Shown here in pieces: positions 17,567 through 31,881 of a DNA stretch of 32,997 bases. The notes under the pieces were generated by a model. That model was not told where the DNA came from and made no database searches. It was given only the letters and a program-made list of their open reading frames with translations. The stretch covers positions 1 through 32,997 of the forward strand of contig QMPV01000015.1 of the NCBI GenBank assembly GCA_003648765.1, written 5' to 3'. Made by a program: the position numbers and the translations under genes. Position 1 is the first letter of the stretch; each line of letters opens with the position of its first letter. The DNA comes from Candidatus Aminicenantota bacterium (GTDB taxonomy: Bacteria > Acidobacteriota > Aminicenantia > Aminicenantales > Aminicenantaceae).

Positions 17567-18112
17567 TCACCTTTTCTCCAGTTGATGGGCGTAAGCGAAT
17601 AAACCGCCGGCCTGAATAATCGCCAGCTGAACCCCCGAGAAAGGCGGGAAATTAAATTTTATTCCCTGGGTAAGATTTTCTCCTTCTCCCGAAAGTAGCG
17701 ATAATCTCACCTCATCGCCCGTAGCCAGCTGCCCATTGGCCACCAAGTTTTCCACCGCCGGACAACGGATGACCGGTAAAGCCGAATTAACCGCATTGCG
17801 GAAATAAATGGCTCCAAAAGAGGGGGCGACAATGGCGGCAATACCCAGAGCCAAGAAACAGTCCACAGCTTGCTGGCGAGAAGAGCCGGCGCCAAAATTC
17901 CGGCCAGCAATGATTATATCTCCTGGTTTGGCCCGCCGAGCAAAATCTTCCCAGCCAGCCAGGTTACCCAAGGCATATTGGCCCATTAGCCGGCGGTCAG
18001 TGATATGGAGATAAGCATTATGATAAATCTGATCGGTATCAATATCTTCAATCAATCGCCCTTGATCATTAGTCAGCACCCATAAACGACCTTGAATTAG
18101 ACCTTCTTTCAT
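17567..18112 (-). CDS. Aconitase/LeuD-family small (swivel) subunit, copy 1
   Basis: DIDTDQIYHNAYLHITD and IIAGRNFGAGSSRQQAVDCF. 1-nt gap from its large subunit. Confidence 0.9.
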   Translation of the reverse strand: MKEGLIQGRLWVLTNDQGRLIEDIDTDQIYHNAYLHITDRRLMGQYALGNLAGWEDFARRAKPGDIIIAGRNFGAGSSRQQAVDCFLALGIAAIVAPSFGAIYFRNAVNSALPVIRCPAVENLVANGQLATGDEVRLSLLSGEGENLTQGIKFNFPPFSGVQLAIIQAGGLFAYAHQLEKR

Positions 18113-18113
18113 T

Positions 18114-19367
18114 TCAAATCTCCTCCGGAGAAATAATTTCTCCAGCCAGACAAGAAGCCGCCACCACTGCCGGACTGGCTAAATAAGTCTGGCCTTTACC
18201 CTGCTTGCCGTAGAAATTGCGGTTAGCCGTGGAAATCTGCACTTCTCCTTCACCGGTTAATCCGATGTGACCTTCAGCACAACCACCACAGCCGGGATTA
18301 CTAACCACCGCTCCACTTCTAAACAAAATTTCCAGAATCCCCTCTTCCAAAAGGGTTTGATAAACCCGACGGGTGGCGGGAACACACTTGAGGATAACTC
18401 CCGGTTTGATTTTTTTCCCCTTCAGGATGTCAGCTGCTTGGCGGAAATCCTCCACCCGGCCATTGGTACAAGAACCAATAAATCCTGAGTCAATGGGAGT
18501 GCCTTTAACTTCGGTAATAGGTTTGACTTTATGAGGAAGATAAGGCACAGCCACCTGGGGCGGTAATCCAGAAACGTCTATGGATATTTCATTTTCATAA
18601 TCGGCATCCGGGTCAGGTTCTGGCCATTCTTCCAAATTAAAACCAGGCAAGGCCATTAATTCTTGAGTTGTTTTTCCATTAAGTTCAGGGATAAACCCGA
18701 TAATGCCGGCCATCTCTGTGACCATACTACATAACGTAATGCGACCTGTTAGAGAAAATTGCTTGACAGGCTCTCCTACAAATTCCACCGCTTTCAAAGC
18801 CACCTGTTTTGTTCCCAGCATCTTACAAAGATAAAGAGTGAGGTCTTTAGGAGTCGCCCAGGGAGATGGTTGGCCGGTGAGACGAACTTTAACTGTTCTC
18901 GGCACTTCAAACCAAGTCCGACCTGTTTTAAAAGAAAAAGTAATATCTACATCACCCATTCCCTGACCAAAACAGCCCACCGCTCCCATTATATTTAAAT
19001 GGCTGTCAGTGCCGACAAGGGTTTTTCCCGGTCCCGCCAGCCCTTCCTCAATCATTACATGGGAACCGATACCGCAATCAACATCAAAAACCCGCAGCCC
19101 GTGGCGTTTGGCAAACAAGCGGCAGATTTGCTGATTATCTGCATATTTTAGGGTACAGGCCGGCACACAAAGATCAAAAGTAAAGACCACCCGGTCGGGA
19201 TCAAAAACTGGTTGGTCGCCGTATTCCCGCTCATAATTTTTCACCACATTTGGCCCTCCGAAGTCACGGGCCGAGACAATATCCAGCTCAAGCCAGACAA
19301 TTTCACCGGGCTGGACTTTGCGGCCACAATGAGCGGCAATTATTTTTTCAATAATTGTTTGCCCCAC
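18114..19367 (-). CDS. Aconitase/LeuC-family large subunit, copy 1 (divergent)
   Basis: LVGTDSHLNIMGAVGCFGQGMGDVDITFSFKTG, GSCTNGRVEDF and NPGCGGCAEGHIG (three [4Fe-4S] Cys). Confidence 0.9.
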   Translation of the reverse strand: MGQTIIEKIIAAHCGRKVQPGEIVWLELDIVSARDFGGPNVVKNYEREYGDQPVFDPDRVVFTFDLCVPACTLKYADNQQICRLFAKRHGLRVFDVDCGIGSHVMIEEGLAGPGKTLVGTDSHLNIMGAVGCFGQGMGDVDITFSFKTGRTWFEVPRTVKVRLTGQPSPWATPKDLTLYLCKMLGTKQVALKAVEFVGEPVKQFSLTGRITLCSMVTEMAGIIGFIPELNGKTTQELMALPGFNLEEWPEPDPDADYENEISIDVSGLPPQVAVPYLPHKVKPITEVKGTPIDSGFIGSCTNGRVEDFRQAADILKGKKIKPGVILKCVPATRRVYQTLLEEGILEILFRSGAVVSNPGCGGCAEGHIGLTGEGEVQISTANRNFYGKQGKGQTYLASPAVVAASCLAGEIISPEEI

Positions 19368-19392
19368 ACCTTCCTCCTAAACAATTTTTTAT

Positions 19393-20508
19393 TTAGATGT
19401 GCTCGGCCACAGCCTTGGCCATATCCAGAGTAGAAGAATTTCCGCCCATATCGTAGGTTCTAACCCGACCCTCTTTTATTACTGCGGCTACCGCCTTCTC
19501 CAGATGAGCGGCCAATTCCTTCTCACCCAGCCACTCCAGCATCATTTTAGTCGCCAAAATCGTGGCTGTCGGGTTGACTTTATAAAGCCCAGCATACTTG
19601 GGGGCCGAACCATGGGTAGGCTCGAAAACAGCGTAATTATCACCGATATTTCCAGCACAAGCAAAGCCTAATCCTCCTACTAGCTGGGCGGAAAGGTCCG
19701 AAATGATATCGCCGAACAAATTTTCCGCTACCAGCACCTCATAATCCTGAGGATTCTTGATCAACCACATAGCCATGGCATCTACATTGGCTTCCCGGAA
19801 TTCAATCTCTGGATACTCACGGGCCATTCTTCGAGCTATATTCAGAATAAGGCCGCCGGTTTCCCGCAACACGTTGGGTTTTTCCACTATGGTTACTGAA
19901 CGCCGCTGGTGTTCTCGGGCATATTCAAAAGCCCGTCTCAAAATTCTTTCACAGGCTTTTTTGGTCATAATGCGAGTCGAGAGAGCAATTTCTTCAGCCG
20001 GCACAGCGGCAAATTTTTTCATTTTAGGGTGAATTAACAGGGCCTGGCGAACCTCTTCGGGTAAAGGATGAAATTCCACTCCGGCATACATTCCTTCGGT
20101 ATTTTCCCGGAAAATAACTAAATCAATATCATCACGATAGTTAAGCGGATTGCCAGGATAAGCTTTGCAAGGTCGAAGGTTAGTGTAAAGGTCAAACTCC
20201 TGGCGCAGACGGACAATCGGACTAAAATAACTTAAACCTTTCTCTCGCAATTCGGGAGCCAACTCCTGCCAAGCATCCTCTTTGGGTTTGGAAGTAATAG
20301 CCCCAAAAAGACAAACATCCGTTTGTTTTAACAACTGAATTGTCCGTTCAGGTAGGGGATTACCTTCCCGACACCAAAATTCCCAACCGATATCACCATA
20401 TAGATATTCGGCATCAAGCTGAAGCTTATCCAGCACCAGCATAGCTGCTTCAATTACATCCCGACCAACCCCATCACCTGGTAAGACAGCTATCCGGTAT
20501 TTGGCCAT
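19393..20508 (-). CDS. Isocitrate/isopropylmalate-type beta-decarboxylating dehydrogenase (isocitrate dehydrogenase-like)
   Basis: IAVLPGDGVGRDVIEAA, SPIVRLRQEFDLYTNLRPCK, VIFRENTEGMYAGVEF, NLFGDIISDLSAQLVGGLGFA and FEPTHGSAPKYAGLYKVNPTATI. Confidence 0.92.
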   Translation of the reverse strand: MAKYRIAVLPGDGVGRDVIEAAMLVLDKLQLDAEYLYGDIGWEFWCREGNPLPERTIQLLKQTDVCLFGAITSKPKEDAWQELAPELREKGLSYFSPIVRLRQEFDLYTNLRPCKAYPGNPLNYRDDIDLVIFRENTEGMYAGVEFHPLPEEVRQALLIHPKMKKFAAVPAEEIALSTRIMTKKACERILRRAFEYAREHQRRSVTIVEKPNVLRETGGLILNIARRMAREYPEIEFREANVDAMAMWLIKNPQDYEVLVAENLFGDIISDLSAQLVGGLGFACAGNIGDNYAVFEPTHGSAPKYAGLYKVNPTATILATKMMLEWLGEKELAAHLEKAVAAVIKEGRVRTYDMGGNSSTLDMAKAVAEHI

Positions 20509-20547
20509 ATAATTCCTCCTCTTCTATAAGATATAATTATGATTTAA

Positions 20548-21060
20548 TTATGTCCTTTTTTTCTCGTCTTCCCTAGAATCAGCTAATTTTTGGCGAGTAT
20601 AGGGAATTAATCCCCCCGCTTTAATTATTTTCAGAACCATCAGCGGCAAGGGCGGCAGCAACCAACGCTTTCCCCCAGCTACTAATTCGCCTTTCTCCAG
20701 TTCAAGGTCAACTTCATCACCCTGATTAAGACCGGCGACAACTTCCTCCTGAACAAAAACTGGTAAACCCTGATTAATAGCGTTCCGGAAAAAAATTCGG
20801 GCAAAGGAACGGGCAATAATCGCTTGGACTCCAGCGGCCTTGAGACAGATAGCCGCCTGCTCTCGGGAACTGCCACAGCCGAAATTGCGACCAGCCACAA
20901 TTATATCCCCCGGTCGAACTTGACGGGCAAATTCAGGGTCTAAGTCCTCTAAAGCGTGTTGGGCCATTTCCTCAGGTGTTAAGGGGGAGTAAGTATATTT
21001 CCCAGGGAATATAACATCTGTATTAACATTATCACCATATTTCCAGACTTTGCCTTTCAT
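20548..21060 (-). CDS. Aconitase/LeuD-family small subunit, copy 2
   Basis: [25 protein letters not shown] and [48 protein letters not shown]. Start reset to 21060, giving an ATGA overlap with the LeuC-like gene. Confidence 0.92.
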
Positions 21061-22313
21061 AGTAAACACTTCCTTGGATCTTTTATTCGGCCTTCAATGG
21101 CCGAAGCAGCTACCGTAGCCGGAGAAGCCAGATAAATAAACGAATCTCGACTACCCATACGGCCCCGGAAATTACGGTTAGCCGTACTAAGAGCCACTTC
21201 GCCTGGAGCTAAGACTCCTTGATGAGCTCCCAAACAAGGGCCGCAGCCCGGATTAATAACTACACACCCCGACTCGTTGAAAATTTTGATCAATCCTTTC
21301 TCTAGGGCTTTTAAAAGCTCCTTCTGTGAAGCAGGAATTATCAGCACTCTCACTTGGGGATGAACCTTCTTTCCCCTAAGAATTTGAGCGGCTACTTCCA
21401 AATCTTCCAGTCGCCCGTTGGTACAAGTGCCAATTAAAGCCTGGTGAAAGGGCAAGCCTTCGACTTCGCTGACCGGTCGAACATTATCCACCGTATGCGG
21501 ACAGGCAACTTGAGGCTCTAATTTGTCTAAATTCAAGTTAATCACCTCACTGTACTGAGCATCTTCATCGGAAGTAACTACTTCATAATCACTGATTCCT
21601 AGCTCCTGGAAAAAATCAAAAACTTTCTTATCAGGATGAAAGTAAGCATTCTTGGCGCCCATTTCAGCGGCCATATTACAGAGCACCATGCGGGAGGCCA
21701 AAGAAAGGGCTTTTGCCCCTGGACCACTGAATTCAACAGCTTGATAGTTGGCTTTATCGGCTCCCTGGTCACCTATGATTTTCAAAATGATATCTTTGGC
21801 ATAAACCCAGGGAGGTAGCTGTCCTTCTAGATTAATTTTAATTGTCTCGGGAACCCGGAGCCAAAGCTCATCGGTAGCCCAGACAGAAGCTACCTCCGAC
21901 CGCCCCACTCCCACAGAAAAAGCGCCGAAAGCCCCATAAGTGGTGGTGTGAGAATCCGCCCCAATAACTATTGTTCCTGGCGCTGCCAAACCGTGTTCGG
22001 AAAGGACCTGGTGGCAAATACCATGATTTATATCAAAAAAATTTCTTACCCGCTGCTCCCTGACAAATTCTCTAATTATTTTATGATTCTGAGCGTATTT
22101 TTCTGAAGAAGCTGGCACAACATGATCGAGCACAATCACCAATTTCTCTGGATCTCTGACCTGGGAAATTCCCAATTTACGAAATTCATTAATAATCGCG
22201 GCGGTATTATCATGGGAAAGAATGCGATCAGGGGAAACAACCACGATATCACCAGCTTTGACTTTCTGGCCGGCCCGTTTTCCCAAAATCTTCTCTGAAA
22301 ATGTTTGCCCCAT
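21057..22313 (-). CDS. Aconitase/LeuC-family large subunit, copy 2
   Basis: VIGADSHTTTYGAFGAFSVGVGRSEVASVWATDELWLRVPETIKI, GTCTNGRLEDL and NPGCGPCLGAHQG. Confidence 0.93.
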   Translation of the reverse strand: MGQTFSEKILGKRAGQKVKAGDIVVVSPDRILSHDNTAAIINEFRKLGISQVRDPEKLVIVLDHVVPASSEKYAQNHKIIREFVREQRVRNFFDINHGICHQVLSEHGLAAPGTIVIGADSHTTTYGAFGAFSVGVGRSEVASVWATDELWLRVPETIKINLEGQLPPWVYAKDIILKIIGDQGADKANYQAVEFSGPGAKALSLASRMVLCNMAAEMGAKNAYFHPDKKVFDFFQELGISDYEVVTSDEDAQYSEVINLNLDKLEPQVACPHTVDNVRPVSEVEGLPFHQALIGTCTNGRLEDLEVAAQILRGKKVHPQVRVLIIPASQKELLKALEKGLIKIFNESGCVVINPGCGPCLGAHQGVLAPGEVALSTANRNFRGRMGSRDSFIYLASPATVAASAIEGRIKDPRKCLL

Positions 22314-22331
22314 GATACCTCCCGAAGTTTT

Positions 22332-22865
22332 TTACTTAAAAGGTTCGAAATTGACGAAATCAGCATGATTAACAATAATCGCCTCTATAGTGGAGCGCCG
22401 CCCATCTCCTTCTTTGGAATGACAGGCGATAATATGCAACACCTCTTCCGGCAAACCAAAGCGAGCCGCAAAAACTGCTCCCGAGAAAGGATGACGGAGC
22501 AACTCCCCTGAACGGCTTTTCTTAAATTCTCCACCTGATTTGGCAAACTCGAAAAGTTTACCCACATCATGAAGCAGTGCCCCTGCTAAGAGAATATCTT
22601 GATTAATGGTAATCCGATCACCATAAACCTCTTTCATCGCTTGAGCAATAGCCAAAGCTGTTCGGGTAACAGCTCGAGTATGGTCAATGAGATTAATCGA
22701 TGTCTTTTCAATAAGCAAAGTAAAAGGCATCTCTAACAGATCATTTATTGTCCAACCTCCCTCTACCAAAGCTTCTTTCCAAACTTGGAGGGTCTTGGTC
22801 TTCAAATCTTGGTCTTGAAATTCATTCAACTCGGGAAATAAAAGAAAAAGTTGTTCATCCATCAA
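22332..22865 (-). CDS. HD-domain metal-dependent phosphohydrolase-like protein
   Basis: LLAGALLHDVGKLFEF, LLRHPFSGAVFAARFGLPEEVLHIIACHSKEGDG and NHADF, an HD-superfamily pattern. Confidence 0.85.
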   Translation of the reverse strand: MMDEQLFLLFPELNEFQDQDLKTKTLQVWKEALVEGGWTINDLLEMPFTLLIEKTSINLIDHTRAVTRTALAIAQAMKEVYGDRITINQDILLAGALLHDVGKLFEFAKSGGEFKKSRSGELLRHPFSGAVFAARFGLPEEVLHIIACHSKEGDGRRSTIEAIIVNHADFVNFEPFK

Positions 22866-23649
22866 AGCCTCCTTCTAAAGTCCTTTCCTCAGGTCCATCA
22901 TATTCAAAATCTTGGGGATCGATCTTTCTCATCGGCCGCATGCGGGTTTTTTCTTCGTGGATATGAGCTACTAAGCCAGGAAGACGAGCAATCATGAAAA
23001 AGGCGTTACCAATCTCGGGTGGAATATCCAGCTCACACAGTAAAGCGGCCATAGCTCCATCGACATTTATCGGAAGTTCCCGACCGGTCATCTCGGCTAG
23101 GATTTTTTCCACAATTTGGGCTGTTTTCACATATTTTCCAGCCAGACCCAATTCCTCAGCCAAATTAAAAAGCTTTATTGTCCGGGGATCCTGGGTATGC
23201 AAACGATGTCCGAAACCGGACATTCTTCTCCCCGCCGCTTTCAACTCCTGGAGGAATTCCCGGGCGGCTTCTTCCAGTTCCACACCCTGCTCACTGCTTC
23301 GCTTAACAATTGTGGTTAACTGGCGCATACCTTCTTCAATGGCTCCGCCGTGGTAGCGGGAGATAGCTAAAATTCCAGCGGCCACAGCTGCATTTAACTC
23401 AGCTCCAGTGGAAGCTACTGTTCGAGCGGCCAGAACAGATGGCGGCGTCGGACCATGGTCAATTGAAGACACCAGGATGGCTTCGATGAGACGGCCCACT
23501 TTTGGGGAAGGTAAATCACCTTTCCAAAGTAAATAAACCGCCTGGCCGAAAGAAATTTGGCCCATTAAGCGGTCAATTGGATAGCCTCGCACCATAATTT
23601 TATTGGGCTCAACCTTGGTAATAGATGTTTTCCAGTGAAACTCACTCAT
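22855..23649 (-). CDS. Citryl-CoA lyase / citrate synthase C-terminal-like protein
   Basis: SIDHGPTPPSVLAARTVASTG, RRMSGFGHRLHTQDPR and NVDGAMAALLCELDIP: the three citrate-synthase catalytic positions (His, His, Asp) are present in a short ~264-aa single-domain form. Confidence 0.88.
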   Translation of the reverse strand: MSEFHWKTSITKVEPNKIMVRGYPIDRLMGQISFGQAVYLLWKGDLPSPKVGRLIEAILVSSIDHGPTPPSVLAARTVASTGAELNAAVAAGILAISRYHGGAIEEGMRQLTTIVKRSSEQGVELEEAAREFLQELKAAGRRMSGFGHRLHTQDPRTIKLFNLAEELGLAGKYVKTAQIVEKILAEMTGRELPINVDGAMAALLCELDIPPEIGNAFFMIARLPGLVAHIHEEKTRMRPMRKIDPQDFEYDGPEERTLEGGFDG

Positions 23650-23659
23650 TATCTCCCCC

Positions 23660-24562
23660 TTATTTTTTCTTTGTCAGTAATTCCCCCACAACCCGAGGGA
23701 AATCAAAAATGGAATCCACCACTCGGACACCAGCCTTTTCTAAAGAATCTCTTTTACTCTCATAAGAACCTCGGCCACCCTCGATAATTGCTCCCGCGTG
23801 CGAAAACCTTGTTCCAGCTTTGGCAGCTTTACCCCCAAGGTAAGCCACCACTGGTTTGGTTACTTTTCCCTGTTGGATTAAACTCGCTACTCGCTCCTCC
23901 TGAGTAGTGCCAATTTCTCCAAAGAGGGCTATTACTTCTGTTTGAGGATCTTCTTGGAAATATTGGGCTATTTCTGGCAGGCCTAAGCCTACCACTGCAT
24001 CCCCTCCGACATGAACAATCGAACTTTGCCCTAAACCGGCTTTAGTCAAATAATAAGAAATGGCCGAAGTCATTCCTCCACTACGGGAACAAACACCGAC
24101 TTGGCCTGGTTGAAACCACTCTCGAGCTCTTTCTGCCCGACCACCAATCATACCCAAAAGAGCTTGCCCCGGACTAACCATTCCCAACGTATTAGGCCCG
24201 AGACAAATAGCTCCCTTAGCAGTCGCCACCTCCAGAATCTCCAAAAGGTCATAAATAGGCACCCGATCGGGAATAAGGACACACATCTTCAGACCAGCAG
24301 CCAAGGCTTCTAGGGCAGCTTCTTTAACCAAAGTAGCCGGCACAAAAATAACCGAAATCTCTGCTGGGCCTCTTGTTTCCAGGGCCTCAACCACAGAATC
24401 AAAAACAGGAATTCCATAAACCTCTTCACCGCCTCTCCCCGGAGTTACTCCCGCAACCACCTGAGTCCCATAATCTTTCATTAACCTGGCCCGAACACGA
24501 CCTTCCCGACCAGTTATCCCCTGAATAATGACTCGTGTCTCTCGATCGACCAAAATAGCCAT
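23660..24562 (-). CDS. SucD-like CoA ligase small subunit (citryl-CoA synthetase CcsB / succinyl-CoA synthetase alpha-like)
   Basis: VIIQGITGREGRVRARLMKDYGTQVVAGVTPGRGGEEVYGIPVFDSV, GVCSRSGGMTSAISYYLTKAGLGQSSIVHVGGDAV and FSHAGAIIEGGRGS (phosphohistidine). Confidence 0.9.
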   Translation of the reverse strand: MAILVDRETRVIIQGITGREGRVRARLMKDYGTQVVAGVTPGRGGEEVYGIPVFDSVVEALETRGPAEISVIFVPATLVKEAALEALAAGLKMCVLIPDRVPIYDLLEILEVATAKGAICLGPNTLGMVSPGQALLGMIGGRAERAREWFQPGQVGVCSRSGGMTSAISYYLTKAGLGQSSIVHVGGDAVVGLGLPEIAQYFQEDPQTEVIALFGEIGTTQEERVASLIQQGKVTKPVVAYLGGKAAKAGTRFSHAGAIIEGGRGSYESKRDSLEKAGVRVVDSIFDFPRVVGELLTKKK

Positions 24563-24565
24563 TTT

Positions 24566-26149
24566 TTACTCAAACTCCTTAGCCTTTGCCTGTTGCTGGG
24601 CGATTATCTGTTGACGATATTCGGCTAAACCGGGTATCGGCAGATAAATATAAATAGCATCTTGCTCATGAAACTTACAGAAAATTTCACAAGCCAAACA
24701 TTCAGTACATCTTCCCTGACGAGCCTCTTCGGATGAGACCTTCAACACTGGGCGGCCAGCCTCATCCAGTTGGAGAATTTCCGCCAAACAGGCTTTAACA
24801 CAGCCTTTAGTCCGGCAGTTTTCACAGGCTTGGTGGTCAATTAATACTTCCCCAGTCATGGTAGCAAACCTATAGGTGTAACGGTCTAAGTCTGGATAAA
24901 CTAAGGGAGAAACTAGATGGTTTTGGGAGTTGTTTTCCTGGACGAGCTCCCGGAGACGGGCAGCGCAAAATTCAGCTGAATCAGCCTGTCCATAACCCTC
25001 AACAACTCCTTTTATTCTAGTGAGATAAGTCTGTAAAATTTGAATCGCCACCTTTTCATAATTACCACCTAAGCGAATAACCGCGGGAATGGTCAAGTTC
25101 TCTTCCAAAAAAGCTTTGACTAATCCCCGGGCCGAATGATATTGCTCCTGGCTGGCCACTCCCGAGCCAGAAGCAAAATAGCCTTTGAGAAAAGGCTGAG
25201 AGAGAATAATTCGCGCCGCCCGATAAACTTTACTGGCTGGGGGATTACCACTTGTATCGCAGTAATTGGCCAGCTTAAACCCTTGAGCCAAGACAGCATC
25301 CATAGACATCATTGACCCCCCTCCTCCTGCTCCCTGGAAACCGATAATCATTTCTTCAGGAGAAAAGTCCTCTTGCATCTGCAGAAAATAAAATGTTCCG
25401 CGGTAATCATCTTTTTCTACTTGGAAGGCAATCTTCTCCAGAAGGGTGGGAGGCCGGTCGAACTCCCGAGCTATTTCAATGGACAGCTCAGGATGCCGAA
25501 AGACAGCGTAATCATCGACGGCCAGATGACAATCAACTGCGACTAACTCGCCTTTTTGGGTCAGCGCCAACGGATTTACTTCCAAAGACCGAGCTTCTAC
25601 CTGGCGGGCAATTTCATAGAGTTTAGCCAGGGTTGAAGCCAGTTTAACCAAGAGTTTACCTCGGAAGCTATGACGGCGGAGGAGATTTCTGACCTCATAT
25701 TCCTTTAAGCCTGAGGAAATCTTAATGGGATGGCGGATTATCTTATCAGGATTCTTTTTGGCTATTTCTTCAATGCCGGTGCCACCCACACTGCTGAAAA
25801 CTAGCACTGGCTTTTTAGCCGCATCATCAATAATCAGACCAGCGAAAAATTCCTGGGCAATATCCAGTTTTTCTTCAACTAGAATTTCTTCAACTATAAA
25901 ACGACCAATCTTCCGACCGAAAAGCTGACGGGCTGACTGCTCGGCTTCTTCTGGAGTTTGGGCAAAGAGAATTCCCCCCTTCTCCGCGCGACCGGTTATC
26001 CAGACCTGAGCTTTGAGGACCACTGGAGAATTAAGATGAGTGGCAATCTGCCGAACTTCCTCTGGGGAGTGGGCTACCCCACCCCGGGGGACTTTAACTC
26101 CTTTCTCCTTTAAAATCTGTTTGGCCTGATATTCAAACAATCTCGCCAT
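24566..26149 (-). CDS. ATP-grasp SucC/CcsA-like CoA ligase large subunit with C-terminal two-cluster [4Fe-4S] ferredoxin domain
   Basis: MARLFEYQAKQILKEKGVKVPRG, EARSLEVNPLALTQKGELVAVDCHLAVDD and GFQGAGGGGSMMSMDAV; C-terminal CENCRTKGCVKAC…CTECLACEIFC. Start at 26149, preceded by GGAGAGAGAG. Confidence 0.9.
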   Translation of the reverse strand: MARLFEYQAKQILKEKGVKVPRGGVAHSPEEVRQIATHLNSPVVLKAQVWITGRAEKGGILFAQTPEEAEQSARQLFGRKIGRFIVEEILVEEKLDIAQEFFAGLIIDDAAKKPVLVFSSVGGTGIEEIAKKNPDKIIRHPIKISSGLKEYEVRNLLRRHSFRGKLLVKLASTLAKLYEIARQVEARSLEVNPLALTQKGELVAVDCHLAVDDYAVFRHPELSIEIAREFDRPPTLLEKIAFQVEKDDYRGTFYFLQMQEDFSPEEMIIGFQGAGGGGSMMSMDAVLAQGFKLANYCDTSGNPPASKVYRAARIILSQPFLKGYFASGSGVASQEQYHSARGLVKAFLEENLTIPAVIRLGGNYEKVAIQILQTYLTRIKGVVEGYGQADSAEFCAARLRELVQENNSQNHLVSPLVYPDLDRYTYRFATMTGEVLIDHQACENCRTKGCVKACLAEILQLDEAGRPVLKVSSEEARQGRCTECLACEIFCKFHEQDAIYIYLPIPGLAEYRQQIIAQQQAKAKEFE

Positions 26150-26173
26150 CTCTCTCTCCAAAAAGCACCTATA

Positions 26174-26613: not shown

Positions 26614-27027
26614 TCATTCCAGCCAGACCTTAAGGACTTCTCCTTCATCATAAATTTCAATTAAGGCCGTGGCTCCTTGTTCTTTGAGTTCCCGCCATAG
26701 TTTACGCAAGTCTAATCTTTTCCCTCTAAAATTCAATCTTAAATCTTTCTCTTCTTCAGCCAATCTAAAAATCCATTCCACTAATTCCACAGGTAAAGTT
26801 ATCCGGACTTTATCCTTTTTACTCCGGACATCGTAGACCACAAGTTTAAACCATTTCACTTCTTGACCTCTCTCGTAGTGGGGATTCTTCCGAACAGCCT
26901 GACGAATAACTTGCAGGTCACGCTCAAAACTTTTAACCCGTGAAAAACATAGGCCACTTACCAGTAAAGCCACAACTAAAGCTATACTAACTTTTCTCAT
27001 CGATAAACCTCCTTTTTTAACAATCAA
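26614..27027 (-). CDS. Secreted small protein with C-terminal YvlB/SHOCT-like domain
   Basis: Signal peptide MRKVSIALVVALLVSGLCFS (start probably at MRKVS); C-terminal KWFKLVVYDVRSKKDKVRITLPVELVEW…ALIEIYDEGEVLKVWLE. Confidence 0.75.
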   Translation of the reverse strand: MIVKKGGLSMRKVSIALVVALLVSGLCFSRVKSFERDLQVIRQAVRKNPHYERGQEVKWFKLVVYDVRSKKDKVRITLPVELVEWIFRLAEEEKDLRLNFRGKRLDLRKLWRELKEQGATALIEIYDEGEVLKVWLE

Positions 27028-27878
27028 TCAACCCAAAGACGAATAACAGTCTCTTCGGATTTTATTTCCAGGATTTCTCCTTTAAATTCATTCAATTCTT
27101 TGATAATTCGATCAATATCATAGCCCTTTTCTTTAAGAAGCTCCTTACTTCTCTCATCTACGGCTCGGAGAGCCAGGTCAGCCAACACCCAAGGAATCGT
27201 CAGATTGACCTTTAATTGCCCTTCCTCAAAAACCTGAAGATGAAGAAGTCTGGTTCTAGTGGCCGTCTTTTCACCGGCATACTCATCCAGAGCTTTAGGA
27301 TCCACCCGTAACAAAGCAATCTTGGCTCGATCACGGAGCTCTTCATCTTTTTCCTCAGAAAGGATTTTCTTTAGAACTTTTAAACACCGCCGCGCTATCT
27401 TCTTCTCAGGGATATAACTCAATTTAAGAGCCGCGTAATATTGAATCACTTTATTGGAGCGGTCCAGACGACCGGTAATCAAAGAAACATAATCCTTTCT
27501 TCCCTTTTTATACAATTCGTAAGCCAAATCAATTATTGAGACCTCGGCTTCCTCTTCCAAACTAGGATTTTTTTCCTTCCGGCGGAGAAATTGCTGGTAA
27601 GCGGCTATAGCTTCGGTCTCCCGGCCAGGTTGCTCTTGTAGACAACGGGCCCGATAAAAGAGGGCTTCGGTGACTAGAGGACTGTGCGGAAATTGCTGAA
27701 TAAGAGTAGTTAATTTAGCTTCTGCTTCGGCCCATTTTTTATCAAAAATTAAAATCTTGGCCTCCTGGAGAAGATCAGCCGCTTTGTGTTTTTCGGCCAA
27801 ACTAGTTCCGGTTATAATTATTAAAAGTATAATAATCCCCAAGGTTATTCTTTTTCTCACTTTAAACCTCACTTTCAT
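27024..27878 (-). CDS. Exported TPR/HEAT-like protein with C-terminal YvlB/SHOCT-like domain
   Basis: N-terminal TM/signal; TPR-like AEAKLTTLIQQFPHSPLVTEALFYRARCLQ; C-terminal LLHLQVFEEGQLKVNLTIPWVLADLAL…ILEIKSEETVIRLWVD. Confidence 0.78.
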   Translation of the reverse strand: MKVRFKVRKRITLGIIILLIIITGTSLAEKHKAADLLQEAKILIFDKKWAEAEAKLTTLIQQFPHSPLVTEALFYRARCLQEQPGRETEAIAAYQQFLRRKEKNPSLEEEAEVSIIDLAYELYKKGRKDYVSLITGRLDRSNKVIQYYAALKLSYIPEKKIARRCLKVLKKILSEEKDEELRDRAKIALLRVDPKALDEYAGEKTATRTRLLHLQVFEEGQLKVNLTIPWVLADLALRAVDERSKELLKEKGYDIDRIIKELNEFKGEILEIKSEETVIRLWVD

Positions 27879-28674
27879 CTAATTCTTTTCTGATAATGTT
27901 TATTTTCAAAAGCAATTGTTTTTCCTGAATAAATCGCTGGAGCTTGATTATTTCCTCGGATGGCAGTCCTTCGCTGACTTTTAGGAGTTCGTAAATCAAA
28001 AACTCTATTTGATCGCACAAAGCTTTAACTCGAGCTAGTCGAAAATCGGCTAACTGAGAATTAAGATACTTTTTCTTGAGTAATAATTCCTGGATTTCTT
28101 CGGCAGTCATCTTTTCTTGCCAAAAACGTTGGGCTTGATCACTGGGTAACTGAAGAAACTCCAAAAGCAACAACTGGCTTTTGTCCAAATAATCCCGCAC
28201 TTCTTCGCGAGCTAGATGCTGTTCAACCTGGTCTAGCATCTGAGGAGAAAAAGAGAAGACTTCTTCTTGAGAAATACGAGGTAACCAACCTTTGAGAATG
28301 AGTAACATGGCCAAGGCTCCAATAATTACTCCAACGCTTAATCCAGCCCAAAGGGGACGGGACAACCAAGAACGCCAGCCTGACTGCTGAAAAAATGGTT
28401 TTGATCTTGGCTTTCTTTCCCTTTGGAATTGACGATTTCTTACCTGGTGTCTTACTTTTTGAACCAATAATTCCCAGTCAATGAAATCTTCTTCTCGCCT
28501 AAGCCCCGCTGCAAAATCATCCACGGCTTGGAGGAGTTGTTGATAAACAGTCAACTCTTGTTGACAAGAAGAACATTGTTTCAAATGAGAAATTACTTTA
28601 TTCCTTTCTTCAGGCGTCAATTCATCAGTTAAAAACGCGCCCAAATTTTTTCTGGTGAAACCACATCCTTTCAT
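27862..28674 (-). CDS. Zinc-finger anti-sigma factor (transmembrane)
   Basis: LGAFLTDELTPEERNKVISHLKQCSSCQQEL (HxxxCxxC zf-HC2); TM AGLSVGVIIGALAMLLILKGW. Overlaps the sigma factor gene by 4 nt. Confidence 0.88.
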   Translation of the reverse strand: MKGCGFTRKNLGAFLTDELTPEERNKVISHLKQCSSCQQELTVYQQLLQAVDDFAAGLRREEDFIDWELLVQKVRHQVRNRQFQRERKPRSKPFFQQSGWRSWLSRPLWAGLSVGVIIGALAMLLILKGWLPRISQEEVFSFSPQMLDQVEQHLAREEVRDYLDKSQLLLLEFLQLPSDQAQRFWQEKMTAEEIQELLLKKKYLNSQLADFRLARVKALCDQIEFLIYELLKVSEGLPSEEIIKLQRFIQEKQLLLKINIIRKELDESEV

Positions 28675-29249
28675 TTCTCTCCTCCCAACAAAGGTTGAAG
28701 ATGATGCCGAAGATGACGAAGGGCTTTAAAATGAAGCGACTTAACAGTTCCTGGAGCTATCCCCAGCACCTGAGCAATTTCATCAAATTTAAGTTCATTA
28801 ATCTGTTTGAGAATAAAAACCAATTTCTGCCGGGGACTTAGTTGCTCCATAGCTTCCCCAATCAATTGACGTAATTCACTGTTTTTTTCCATTGGCCATT
28901 CTTGTTTTATTAAGGTTAAGGCATCTGGATAATGATTAATTCCCGCTCCTCTTTTCTGGCTCTTCTGCCGGCGGTAACGGTCGATACATAGATGGCGAGC
29001 AATTTGATAAAGCCAGTGTTCAATATTGGTCTCTTCTTTTAAATATCCCATCTTTTCATAAGCTCGCATAAATGTTTCCTGAACAATATCCAGCGCTTCT
29101 TCCCGATCGCCACAAAATGCATAGGCTAACCGAAATATCTTTTTCTGATAAACAGCCACCCAATGAGCCACGGCTTCCTCATTCCTCTCCCGCAACTGAG
29201 AGACAAAATTCTTCCGCGCCAACTCATTAGATCCTCCTCGGCTTCTCAT
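28671..29249 (-). CDS. ECF-type RNA polymerase sigma factor
   Basis: YAFCGDREEALDIVQETFMRAYEKM (region 2), WLYQIARHLCIDRYRRQ, and LSPRQKLVFILKQINELKFDEIAQVLGIAPGTVKSLHFKALRHLR (region 4). Confidence 0.95.
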   Translation of the reverse strand: MRSRGGSNELARKNFVSQLRERNEEAVAHWVAVYQKKIFRLAYAFCGDREEALDIVQETFMRAYEKMGYLKEETNIEHWLYQIARHLCIDRYRRQKSQKRGAGINHYPDALTLIKQEWPMEKNSELRQLIGEAMEQLSPRQKLVFILKQINELKFDEIAQVLGIAPGTVKSLHFKALRHLRHHLQPLLGGEK

Positions 29250-29285
29250 CTACCTGATTATATCCTTTTTTTCGGCAAAATAACT

Positions 29286-29720
29286 TTACTCCAGCCAGAT
29301 CAATACTCGGTCATCTTCAGTCAATACTTCCAACAGGAGACCTGCCCCCCTAGTGAAAATCAATTGCCATTCTTCCTCACTGACCTTATCCACCCAGTGA
29401 TTATGGGAAAAAGCTGGCCTTTCATCATCAAAGGCCCAACAATCTTTCATCCCCAAAATCAATCCCAACGGGGCTGTTAACCGAACCAGTCTCGCTTCAT
29501 CTCGCTCATAGACCAAAAGACAAATTTTCTGGGGTTGTTGGTTATCCTTTCGGGCTACTTGGGCGATCCGTTTATAAGCTTGGGCAAAATAAGGTTCGGG
29601 ATTATCAATGTTTTCCATCAACTGAACTGAAGCGCAGCCCGCCAGAGTAAAAATAATTAGGATAAACAAAAAAATGATTATTGGTTGGGGTTTTTTTGGA
29701 GCTAACATCAGCCTCTCCAC
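29286..29720 (-). CDS. Small lipoprotein with YvlB/SHOCT-like C-terminal region
   Basis: Lipobox FTLAGC; C-terminal CLLVYERDEARLVRLTAPLGLILG…LLEVLTEDDRVLIWLE resembles its two paralogous neighbours. Start likely at MLAPKK. Confidence 0.7.
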   Translation of the reverse strand: MERLMLAPKKPQPIIIFLFILIIFTLAGCASVQLMENIDNPEPYFAQAYKRIAQVARKDNQQPQKICLLVYERDEARLVRLTAPLGLILGMKDCWAFDDERPAFSHNHWVDKVSEEEWQLIFTRGAGLLLEVLTEDDRVLIWLE

Positions 29721-30132
29721 GTTAAACTAATTTCCACCCTTCCTTACGCAAACTGAAAGAAAAAAGTTTATCCCTTTTAGTTAATTTTCTTCTATTTAAA
29801 TTTATTCAGCTAAATCAACGCCCCCCCTTCTCCGCCAGTCAATTCTTCTCATTTTCAAGTTAAAGTGAACTTCTATTCTCCCCTCTCCAAGATGTATCTA
29901 AGTGTTAATGGAGAGGAAAGGCAAAATATCCAGGAACCTCTATTCCCTCCCAGAATTCCACCAAAAAATTGACCTTTTCTCGCTGAATATCGGTTAGAAA
30001 GGCCTCTCCTCCTTTTTTTTCTCCCAGGATGGGCTAAGCAATAAACAAAGACCTTCTTTTAAAACTAACTGGAGAAAAATAACTTGCCTCGCTGAGCTAG
30101 ATATAGGTAAAATCCACTTACAGGAGGCTGGC

Positions 30133-31881
30133 ATGAAAAGGAGAACCACCTATTTATTAATAATTATTTTCTTTTTTATCTTCCTCATTGGCGCCACCCT
30201 CATCTCCATTTTATATTTTGAGTTCGCTCAGGCTCCCTCGGTTAAACCTAATTCTTTTCTAGTGATTAAACTTCAAGGCACCATAGTGGAAAGAAGCGCT
30301 CCAGACCTGTTTTCCCGGATTTTCCTTGTCTCACCTCAACTCTCTATGTATGACCTCTGGTTCACGTTCCGCAAGGCAAAAGTAGATCCTCGCATCAAAG
30401 GCATTATCCTATATCTGGGACAATTGCAATGTGATTGGGGAAAGATTAATGAACTCCGCGACCTTATCCAGGATTTTCGCCAATCAAACAAACCTATCTA
30501 TGCTTATTTTGAAGAAACTTTGGATGTCGATAAAGAATATTACCTGGCCACAGCCTGCCAAGGAATTATCCTGCATCCTTTAGGAACTCTAGGCATCAAT
30601 GGCTTGGGAGGATATGTGCCTTTCTTTAAACATACTTTAACTAAATTGGGCATCGAAGTTGAGGTGGAACACCTGGAAGAATATAAAACCGCCTACAATA
30701 TGTTCACTGAAGATAAATTCACGCCCGCCCACCAGGAAATGTTAGAATCTATTTACCGAGATATCTTCCAGCGCTATTTGACCACAGTGGCTGAAGCCCG
30801 AAAAAAGAAGACCACCGAAATGAAAAGGCTCATCGACCACGGTTTTTATCAGGGGGAAGAAGCCTTAAAATCAGGATTAGTGGATCATTTATTTTATCAA
30901 GATGAATTAGGAGAATTCCTCAAAAAACAAACCGGGAAAAAAGTAAACTTTATTAATTATTCAAACTATCTCCGGGTCAAACCATCTTCATTAGGTTTGA
31001 ATAAAGGCCCTCGAGTGGCTCTGGTTTACGCCAGTGGGCCTATCCATACCGGAGAAAGTACTTTCCAATCGATTGGCAGCACCACTTTAACAAGATGGTT
31101 TCGGAAGATCAGAAGTGATAAATCCATCAAAGGGGTGGTCTTCCGAGTCGACAGTCCCGGCGGCTCAGCCGTAGCCTCAGACATCATCCGCCGGGAAATT
31201 TTCTTAACCAAAAAAGAAAAACCCGTAGTAGTCAGTATGAGCGATGTAGCCGGTTCAGGCGGGTACTGGATTTCATTGGCCAGTCATCGAATAATCGCCC
31301 AACCCCAAACTTTGACTGGTTCTATTGGGGTAATCTCAGGCAAAATAAACATGATAACTCTCTACCAAAAAATTGGAGTAACAGCCGAAAAATTAACTTT
31401 TGGCCGTCATGCTGATATCTTTTCCACTTTCCATCGTCTCACTCTCGAAGAAAGGCAACTCCTTAAAGACCAAATTTCCCAAATTTACAACCAATTTCTT
31501 TCGCTGGTAGCTGAAGCCAGAAATAAACCCAAAGAAGAAGTTCAGAAAATAGCCAAAGGCCGTGTCTGGACCGGTGCTCAAGCCCTCCAATTGGGTCTAG
31601 TTGATGATTTAGGTGGCTTGACCTTGGCCTTGAATAAGGTCAAAGAATTAGCGGGTATTCCCCCAGAAAGAGAGGTTAAGTTGGTGGTTTTCCCTCGGGA
31701 GATTTCCTTGTGGAGCTATTTATTTTCCCGCCGGGGGATAACTGCCTCTCCTTCGCTTATTAGAGAACTTCAGGTTCAAGTCAGCCCTCAGGAATTAAAA
31801 ATGCTCAAGATTTGTCAACTTCTCCAGCAATCTGGCTCCTCAGGTTGGGCGTTAATGCCTTTCTGGAAAACTCCCCAATGA
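30133..31881 (+). CDS. sppA: Signal peptide peptidase SppA, 67K-type
   Basis: VVFRVDSPGGSAVASDIIRREI, VVSMSDVAGSGGYWISLASHRIIAQPQTLTGSIGVI and EEYKTAYNMFTEDKFTPAH. SD AGGAGG upstream of the ATG. Confidence 0.95.
   Translation: MKRRTTYLLIIIFFFIFLIGATLISILYFEFAQAPSVKPNSFLVIKLQGTIVERSAPDLFSRIFLVSPQLSMYDLWFTFRKAKVDPRIKGIILYLGQLQCDWGKINELRDLIQDFRQSNKPIYAYFEETLDVDKEYYLATACQGIILHPLGTLGINGLGGYVPFFKHTLTKLGIEVEVEHLEEYKTAYNMFTEDKFTPAHQEMLESIYRDIFQRYLTTVAEARKKKTTEMKRLIDHGFYQGEEALKSGLVDHLFYQDELGEFLKKQTGKKVNFINYSNYLRVKPSSLGLNKGPRVALVYASGPIHTGESTFQSIGSTTLTRWFRKIRSDKSIKGVVFRVDSPGGSAVASDIIRREIFLTKKEKPVVVSMSDVAGSGGYWISLASHRIIAQPQTLTGSIGVISGKINMITLYQKIGVTAEKLTFGRHADIFSTFHRLTLEERQLLKDQISQIYNQFLSLVAEARNKPKEEVQKIAKGRVWTGAQALQLGLVDDLGGLTLALNKVKELAGIPPEREVKLVVFPREISLWSYLFSRRGITASPSLIRELQVQVSPQELKMLKICQLLQQSGSSGWALMPFWKTPQ

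Follow-up and report, generated by a model that had tools for sequence, protein, structure and literature searches.

The locus described here raises the question of what three proteins encoded around an ECF sigma factor and its membrane anti-sigma factor have in common, and what the shared part would contribute to the pathway. It lies in a stretch of 32,997 nucleotides from Candidatus Aminicenantota bacterium (contig QMPV01000015.1, positions 1 to 32,997), which was analysed as a whole and is called the window below. A preliminary description made from the letters alone had aligned the C-termini of the three proteins by eye, had likened them to a small domain of YvlB/DUF2089 SHOCT-like proteins, and had taken them to be envelope-side sensors or effectors of the ECF pathway. 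To our knowledge, the ECF circuits of Acidobacteriota have been little studied.

Results

All five open reading frames are present with the boundaries first assigned to them, on the minus strand, where they form one head-to-tail run of lipoprotein, ECF sigma factor, ZAS anti-sigma factor, TPR/tail protein and secreted tail protein. The first gene (29286..29720, minus strand) encodes a lipoprotein with a lipobox (LAGC) and a C-terminal tail domain at about residues 63-144; orthologs 5' of sigma were recovered at 18 loci of Aminicenantes, where 15 of the 18 have a lipobox, and also in other classes. The second gene (28671..29249, minus strand) encodes an ~190-residue protein carrying sigma-70 region 2 and region 4 (PF04542, 1.5e-16; PF08281, 1.1e-16; TIGR02937 above cut-off at 102.5 bits), and the adjacent anti-sigma gene, together with a predicted ECF-type promoter motif ahead of its own operon, places it among the ECF sigma factors. 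The membrane anti-sigma factor (27862..28674, minus strand) consists of an N-terminal zf-HC2 domain (PF13490, 7e-9), one TM segment and a helical extracytoplasmic domain, and the zinc-binding H-x3-C-x2-C near its N-terminus, kept in 50 of 52 orthologs, marks it as a ZAS (class I) factor. The extracytoplasmic helical domain, at about residues 131-270, is strongly conserved (YLExSQYLLLDF...KKKYxNxQL...CDQIExLF...QLLLKI) and matched no Pfam or other family model.

The fourth gene (27024..27878, minus strand) encodes an exported TPR-type helical-repeat protein (TPR_6, 7.4e-8) with the tail domain at about residues 209-284. Its AF2 model (pLDDT 84) shows an all-helical part, for which the best PDB matches in a fold search were BamD and TPR proteins, followed by a beta-beta-alpha-alpha-alpha-beta-beta tail. 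The last gene (26614..27027, minus strand), with 39 orthologs lying directly 3' of the TPR gene, encodes a small secreted protein composed of a signal peptide, a short helix, the tail (about residues 55-137) and little else; its start is probably the ATG at 27000 rather than 27027, matching its orthologs. The signal-peptide, lipoprotein and TPR contexts first proposed for the tails were thus recovered, whereas the HEAT repeats were not, Pfam supporting TPR alone in the 284-aa protein. The overlaps of 4 bp between sigma and anti-sigma genes and 17 bp between anti-sigma and TPR genes, and the gap of 36 bp between the end of the lipoprotein gene and sigma, are the spacing expected for a single transcription unit. 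Elsewhere in the window, an amidohydrolase-like gene (585-2078) was recognised by eye, as were two aconitase-family large/small subunit pairs and isocitrate dehydrogenase, citrate synthase and succinyl-CoA ligase-like genes (17567-26161).

Because iterated HMMs merged the three tail families, the case for their homology rests on separate profiles of ortholog families that were defined strictly by cluster position (18 lipoprotein, 52 TPR and 39 secreted sequences, gathered by genome search and a scan of GTDB contigs). Compared by hhalign, these ortholog-only profiles scored 81.4 (E 1.7e-15) for the secreted and lipoprotein tails, 58.7 (E 3e-10) for the secreted and TPR tails, and 35.9 (E 7.6e-6) for the TPR and lipoprotein tails; the maxima of the column-shuffled controls, 18, 17 and 29 in the same order, are far below the first two scores and below the third. 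Negative control profiles made from the C-termini of sigma or anti-sigma scored 8.7-12.8 against the tails, as unrelated sequences. In a tree that included other classes, separate groups were formed by the TPR tails (65/65), the lipoprotein tails (24/24), the secreted tails (42/46) and the SHOCT C-domains (18/18), with support of 0.83-0.998 for the four groups, and the persistence of separate clades across the phylum indicates that the paralogs are old and were not recently copied from one another. Judged by these profiles, the three tails (within 26614-27027, 27024-27878 and 29286-29720, all on the minus strand) are a homologous domain, every pair being related, and the by-eye alignment is borne out.

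When the window tails were compared alone in a pairwise shuffle test, the scores of the secreted tail with the TPR and lipoprotein tails were reached by 0 of 2000 shuffles, and that of the weaker TPR-lipoprotein pair by 89 of 2000, which is not significant. This last result is what could be said for three unrelated, short beta-rich ends that are alike by chance or composition, an idea which the ortholog-only comparisons with their column-shuffle controls, and the clean clades, in which a P and a W are invariant, make scarcely credible.

The core of the tail comprises ~80 residues in the order beta-beta-alpha-alpha-beta-beta, and the invariant positions of the alignment are P25 and the W of the last V/I-W-L/I/V/F-E strand. 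An AlphaFold model of the secreted-protein tail (pLDDT 88) has strands at 5-12 and 17-25, a helix at 26-35, strands at 43-46 and 49-52, a helix at 53-66, and strands at 68-73 and 76-82; the tail in the TPR-protein model keeps this order, with an extra helix added and the two short middle strands absent. None of 25 tail members matched a Pfam family, and scans of the tails against Pfam, NCBIfam and PHROG gave nothing above cut-off. When PDB sequences were searched with the profile of the tail, all matches had E of at least 0.05, PCNA being the best of them, and none was accepted as a homolog. A fold search of the PDB with the tail model gave no convincing chain, with probability <= 0.35 and TM < 0.4 among the matches listed.

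A relationship of the tails to SHOCT-like proteins was seen in profile comparison, the merged tails matching a SHOCT C-domain profile with 91% probability (E 9.5e-7) over the beta-beta-alpha-alpha-beta-beta core. In small searches the tail HMM matched Acidobacteriota SHOCT-like proteins and residues 57-127 of a Paraclostridium SHOCT-like protein (E 1e-7 to 2e-8), and the HMM of the exported tails weakly matched a stand-alone protein encoded beside the Paraclostridium gene. On these comparisons, the family first suggested is essentially right, in that the tails are one domain, related to the C-terminal domain of PF22746 proteins of Acidobacteriota and Clostridia. PF22746 itself spans only the N-terminal ~32 residues of SHOCT-like proteins, not the tail-like domain, and had no match in any window protein or, by genome search, in the genome to which the window belongs. 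The likeness to YvlB/DUF2089 SHOCT-like proteins first suggested therefore holds for their C-terminal domain, but the family name covers the other half. Assignment of the tails to B. subtilis YvlB, a SHOCT-like protein with DUF4097/Toastrack, looks wrong; the DUF4097 (Toastrack) beta-repeat had no match in the window proteins. At four SHOCT-like loci of Acidobacteriota (L264:3615-3896, L267, L268 and L269) a ~92-residue protein is encoded between a DUF2089-type regulator gene and a SHOCT-like gene, and by weak HMM matches it resembles a tail with the helical part swapped for transmembrane helices.

The tail domain is present in 119 of 396 sampled Acidobacteriota genomes, in contexts that include stand-alone, tandem and SHOCT-fused forms. 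Nearly all of the cluster loci recovered from Aminicenantes, some on truncated contigs, have the order sigma, anti-sigma, TPR/tail; with the same truncations, 39 have the secreted tail and 18 the lipoprotein. The lipoprotein is absent from many loci, where the promoter directly precedes sigma, and so is not essential to the module. The full five-gene order also occurs outside Aminicenantes, in other Acidobacteriota classes (L130, L131, L135 and L139), which indicates that the arrangement is old in the phylum. Secreted tandem double-tail proteins of ~180 residues were also found in other classes (L145:4640-5197, L146:4459-5013, L147:4543-5091 and L148:4753-5295); a sigma factor of this family was not detected within about 5 kb of them.

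The predicted ECF-type promoter of the window, TAAACTTTTTTCTTTCAGTTTGCGTA (29745..29770, minus strand; -35 TAAAC, 17 bp, -10 CGTA), lies 25 bp 5' of the GTG start of the lipoprotein gene and is the single match to TRAAC-N17-CGTA in the window, where 0.17 would be expected. In an unbiased spaced-word count over upstream regions, AACCT...CGTA stood far above shuffles, and the consensus is TRAACCTTTT-N12-CGTA, that is, T[GA]AACCTTTT-N12-CGTA. Scored as T[GA]AAC-N17-CGTA, the motif is present ahead of the leading gene of the transcription unit at 44 of 53 loci (at most 1 in shuffled regions, 0 for the reversed motif), before the lipoprotein gene where there is one and otherwise directly before sigma; the exact motif is absent from 9 of the 53 upstream regions. 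Exact matches in 46 genomes numbered 23, and those of the reversed control 0. This operon accounts for 19 of the 23, one of them ahead of a second sigma copy that is truncated, which makes the tail proteins the probable main output. With looser criteria, 71 sites were recovered, compared with 17 in controls. Matches with one mismatch in the window's own genome (7, against 10 for the reversed control) were at noise level and were not used alone. The promoter is established by conservation, and we infer its use by this sigma factor. Conserved synteny and the shared autoregulatory promoter support the earlier placement of the tail proteins in an ECF pathway.

Sites away from the cluster include those upstream of pspC, where 5.4 kb held 6, compared with 3 in 173 kb of other sequence at the same loci; genome G034 has such a site in addition. 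Others precede two large secreted proteins with a CBM9-like N-terminus, in two different families, a DUF4342 protein, and YtfJ-like secreted proteins in two genomes (one above the Pfam cut-off, the other recognised by eye). The window's genome holds a second exact copy of the motif at the start of a HlyD/CusB-type efflux adaptor gene (L237, G000:C34:5271-5296). In another genome, G001, the pspC site is kept though the orthologous cluster was not detected, which suggests that another ECF factor may use such sites. The off-cluster sites are thus weakly supported leads, for which other ECF factors with similar motifs could account. The divergent neighbour of the operon encodes an SppA-type peptidase (S49; 30133..31881, plus strand; Peptidase_S49, 1.4e-73), and sppA homologs occur, often with intervening genes, in the flanking sequence retrieved for 35 other cluster loci, a number that includes duplicate records of a single genome. 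By its position, sppA is a conserved and frequent neighbour and only a candidate member of the circuit.

Discussion

The locus is probably an autoregulated ECF sigma/ZAS anti-sigma module for envelope stress, whose chief output would be paralogous extracytoplasmic proteins sharing the ~80-residue domain. By analogy with its family, the zinc anti-sigma factor would keep sigma at the inner membrane in unstressed cells; an envelope signal would be sensed by the helical extracytoplasmic domain of the anti-sigma factor and sigma would be freed. From TRAACCTTTT-N12-CGTA, free sigma would then transcribe the operon, and also a few envelope genes, pspC among them. All three tail proteins (lipoprotein, TPR scaffold and small secreted protein) may then come together at the membrane surface by way of the domain they share, and the assembled proteins could protect the membrane, feed back on the anti-sigma factor, or both. 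The parallels with B. subtilis sigma-W and with the PSP partner network argue for membrane stress as the input, by analogy and short of proof.

That the tail proteins instead act upstream, as sensors or co-regulators, is a good deal less probable and still deserves weight. In the periplasm they would bind the anti-sigma factor at its helical domain and control its stability in the manner of RseB, with autoregulation serving only to replenish them. RseB-type periplasmic regulators are known, which counts for this proposal, as do the strict co-operonic position of the tail genes with sigma and anti-sigma over the phylum and the extracytoplasmic location that the tail proteins share with the anti-sigma domain. 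However, two of the three paralogs are optional, and no sigma partner could be recognised within about 5 kb of the double-tail secreted proteins of L145-L148. Since the chief target of the promoter is the operon itself, a role in output or feedback is favoured at least as much as one in sensing.

We consider it unlikely that the tails are a generic module for oligomerisation or docking at the membrane surface, the operon's function being carried by the lipoprotein anchor and the TPR scaffold at the N-termini while the ECF factor merely controls envelope assembly, for instance through a BamD-like scaffold. The fold matches of the TPR part to BamD and TPR proteins would fit such a role, and so would the many contexts of the domain, stand-alone, tandem and SHOCT-fused. 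On the other hand, the small secreted protein has hardly anything besides its signal peptide, short helix and tail, and the tail is the sole part common to all three products.

A bolder reading, which we put forward as rather doubtful, is that the tail is an undescribed membrane-stress domain, of a fold not yet in the PDB, that works on either side of the membrane. Its cytosolic form would act with SHOCT-like/DUF2089 regulators and with a two-TM relative in which the helical part has turned into membrane-spanning segments. In the envelope it would form a set of three under ECF control, and matched complexes on the inner and outer faces might thereby report on the same membrane.

What is new here, at the level of sequence, is a conserved five-gene operon with a conserved ECF promoter ahead of its first gene. 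The analysis defines a recurrent domain and connects it with the SHOCT-like proteins that partner PSP-type stress systems. For Acidobacteriota it also provides a sigma factor whose promoter motif is defined and whose predicted regulon is small. Both this promoter and the pair of sigma and anti-sigma factors are open to direct test in a heterologous host.

Among known systems, B. subtilis sigma-W, with promoters of the TGAAAC/CGTA type, resembles the present one in promoter type and in autoregulation. The sigma-W regulon includes yvlABCD, pspA and sppA (PMC3498285), which parallel the pspC sites and the sppA neighbourhood found here. In contrast, the sigma-W/RsiW regulon is large and the system lacks a cluster of tail-domain genes, whereas nearly all exact promoter matches of the present system are the operon itself. 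The class I (ZAS) anti-sigma factors paired with ECF sigma factors (mSystems 2020, PMC7406223) share the N-terminal zinc-binding domain and the sigma-anti-sigma gene pair, and the anti-sigma factor described here differs in adding the conserved helical extracytoplasmic domain of ~130 residues, which is without a family model. The PSP partner network, in which Toastrack, PspC, SHOCT-like and DUF2089 proteins are placed around membrane-stress signalling (PMC11237479), involves the same partner families; in the sections of that work used here, SHOCT-fused globular domains are treated as intracellular, and neither the tail domain nor an extracytoplasmic version of it is named. The SHOCT-like proteins encoded beside DUF2089 are alike in the homologous C-terminal domain of ~80 residues and in forming small paralogous sets that adjoin a transcription regulator. 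In those proteins, however, the domain follows a SHOCT-like helix pair and there is no signal peptide, whereas the Aminicenantes tails are exported, lack SHOCT and are placed under the predicted control of an ECF sigma factor.
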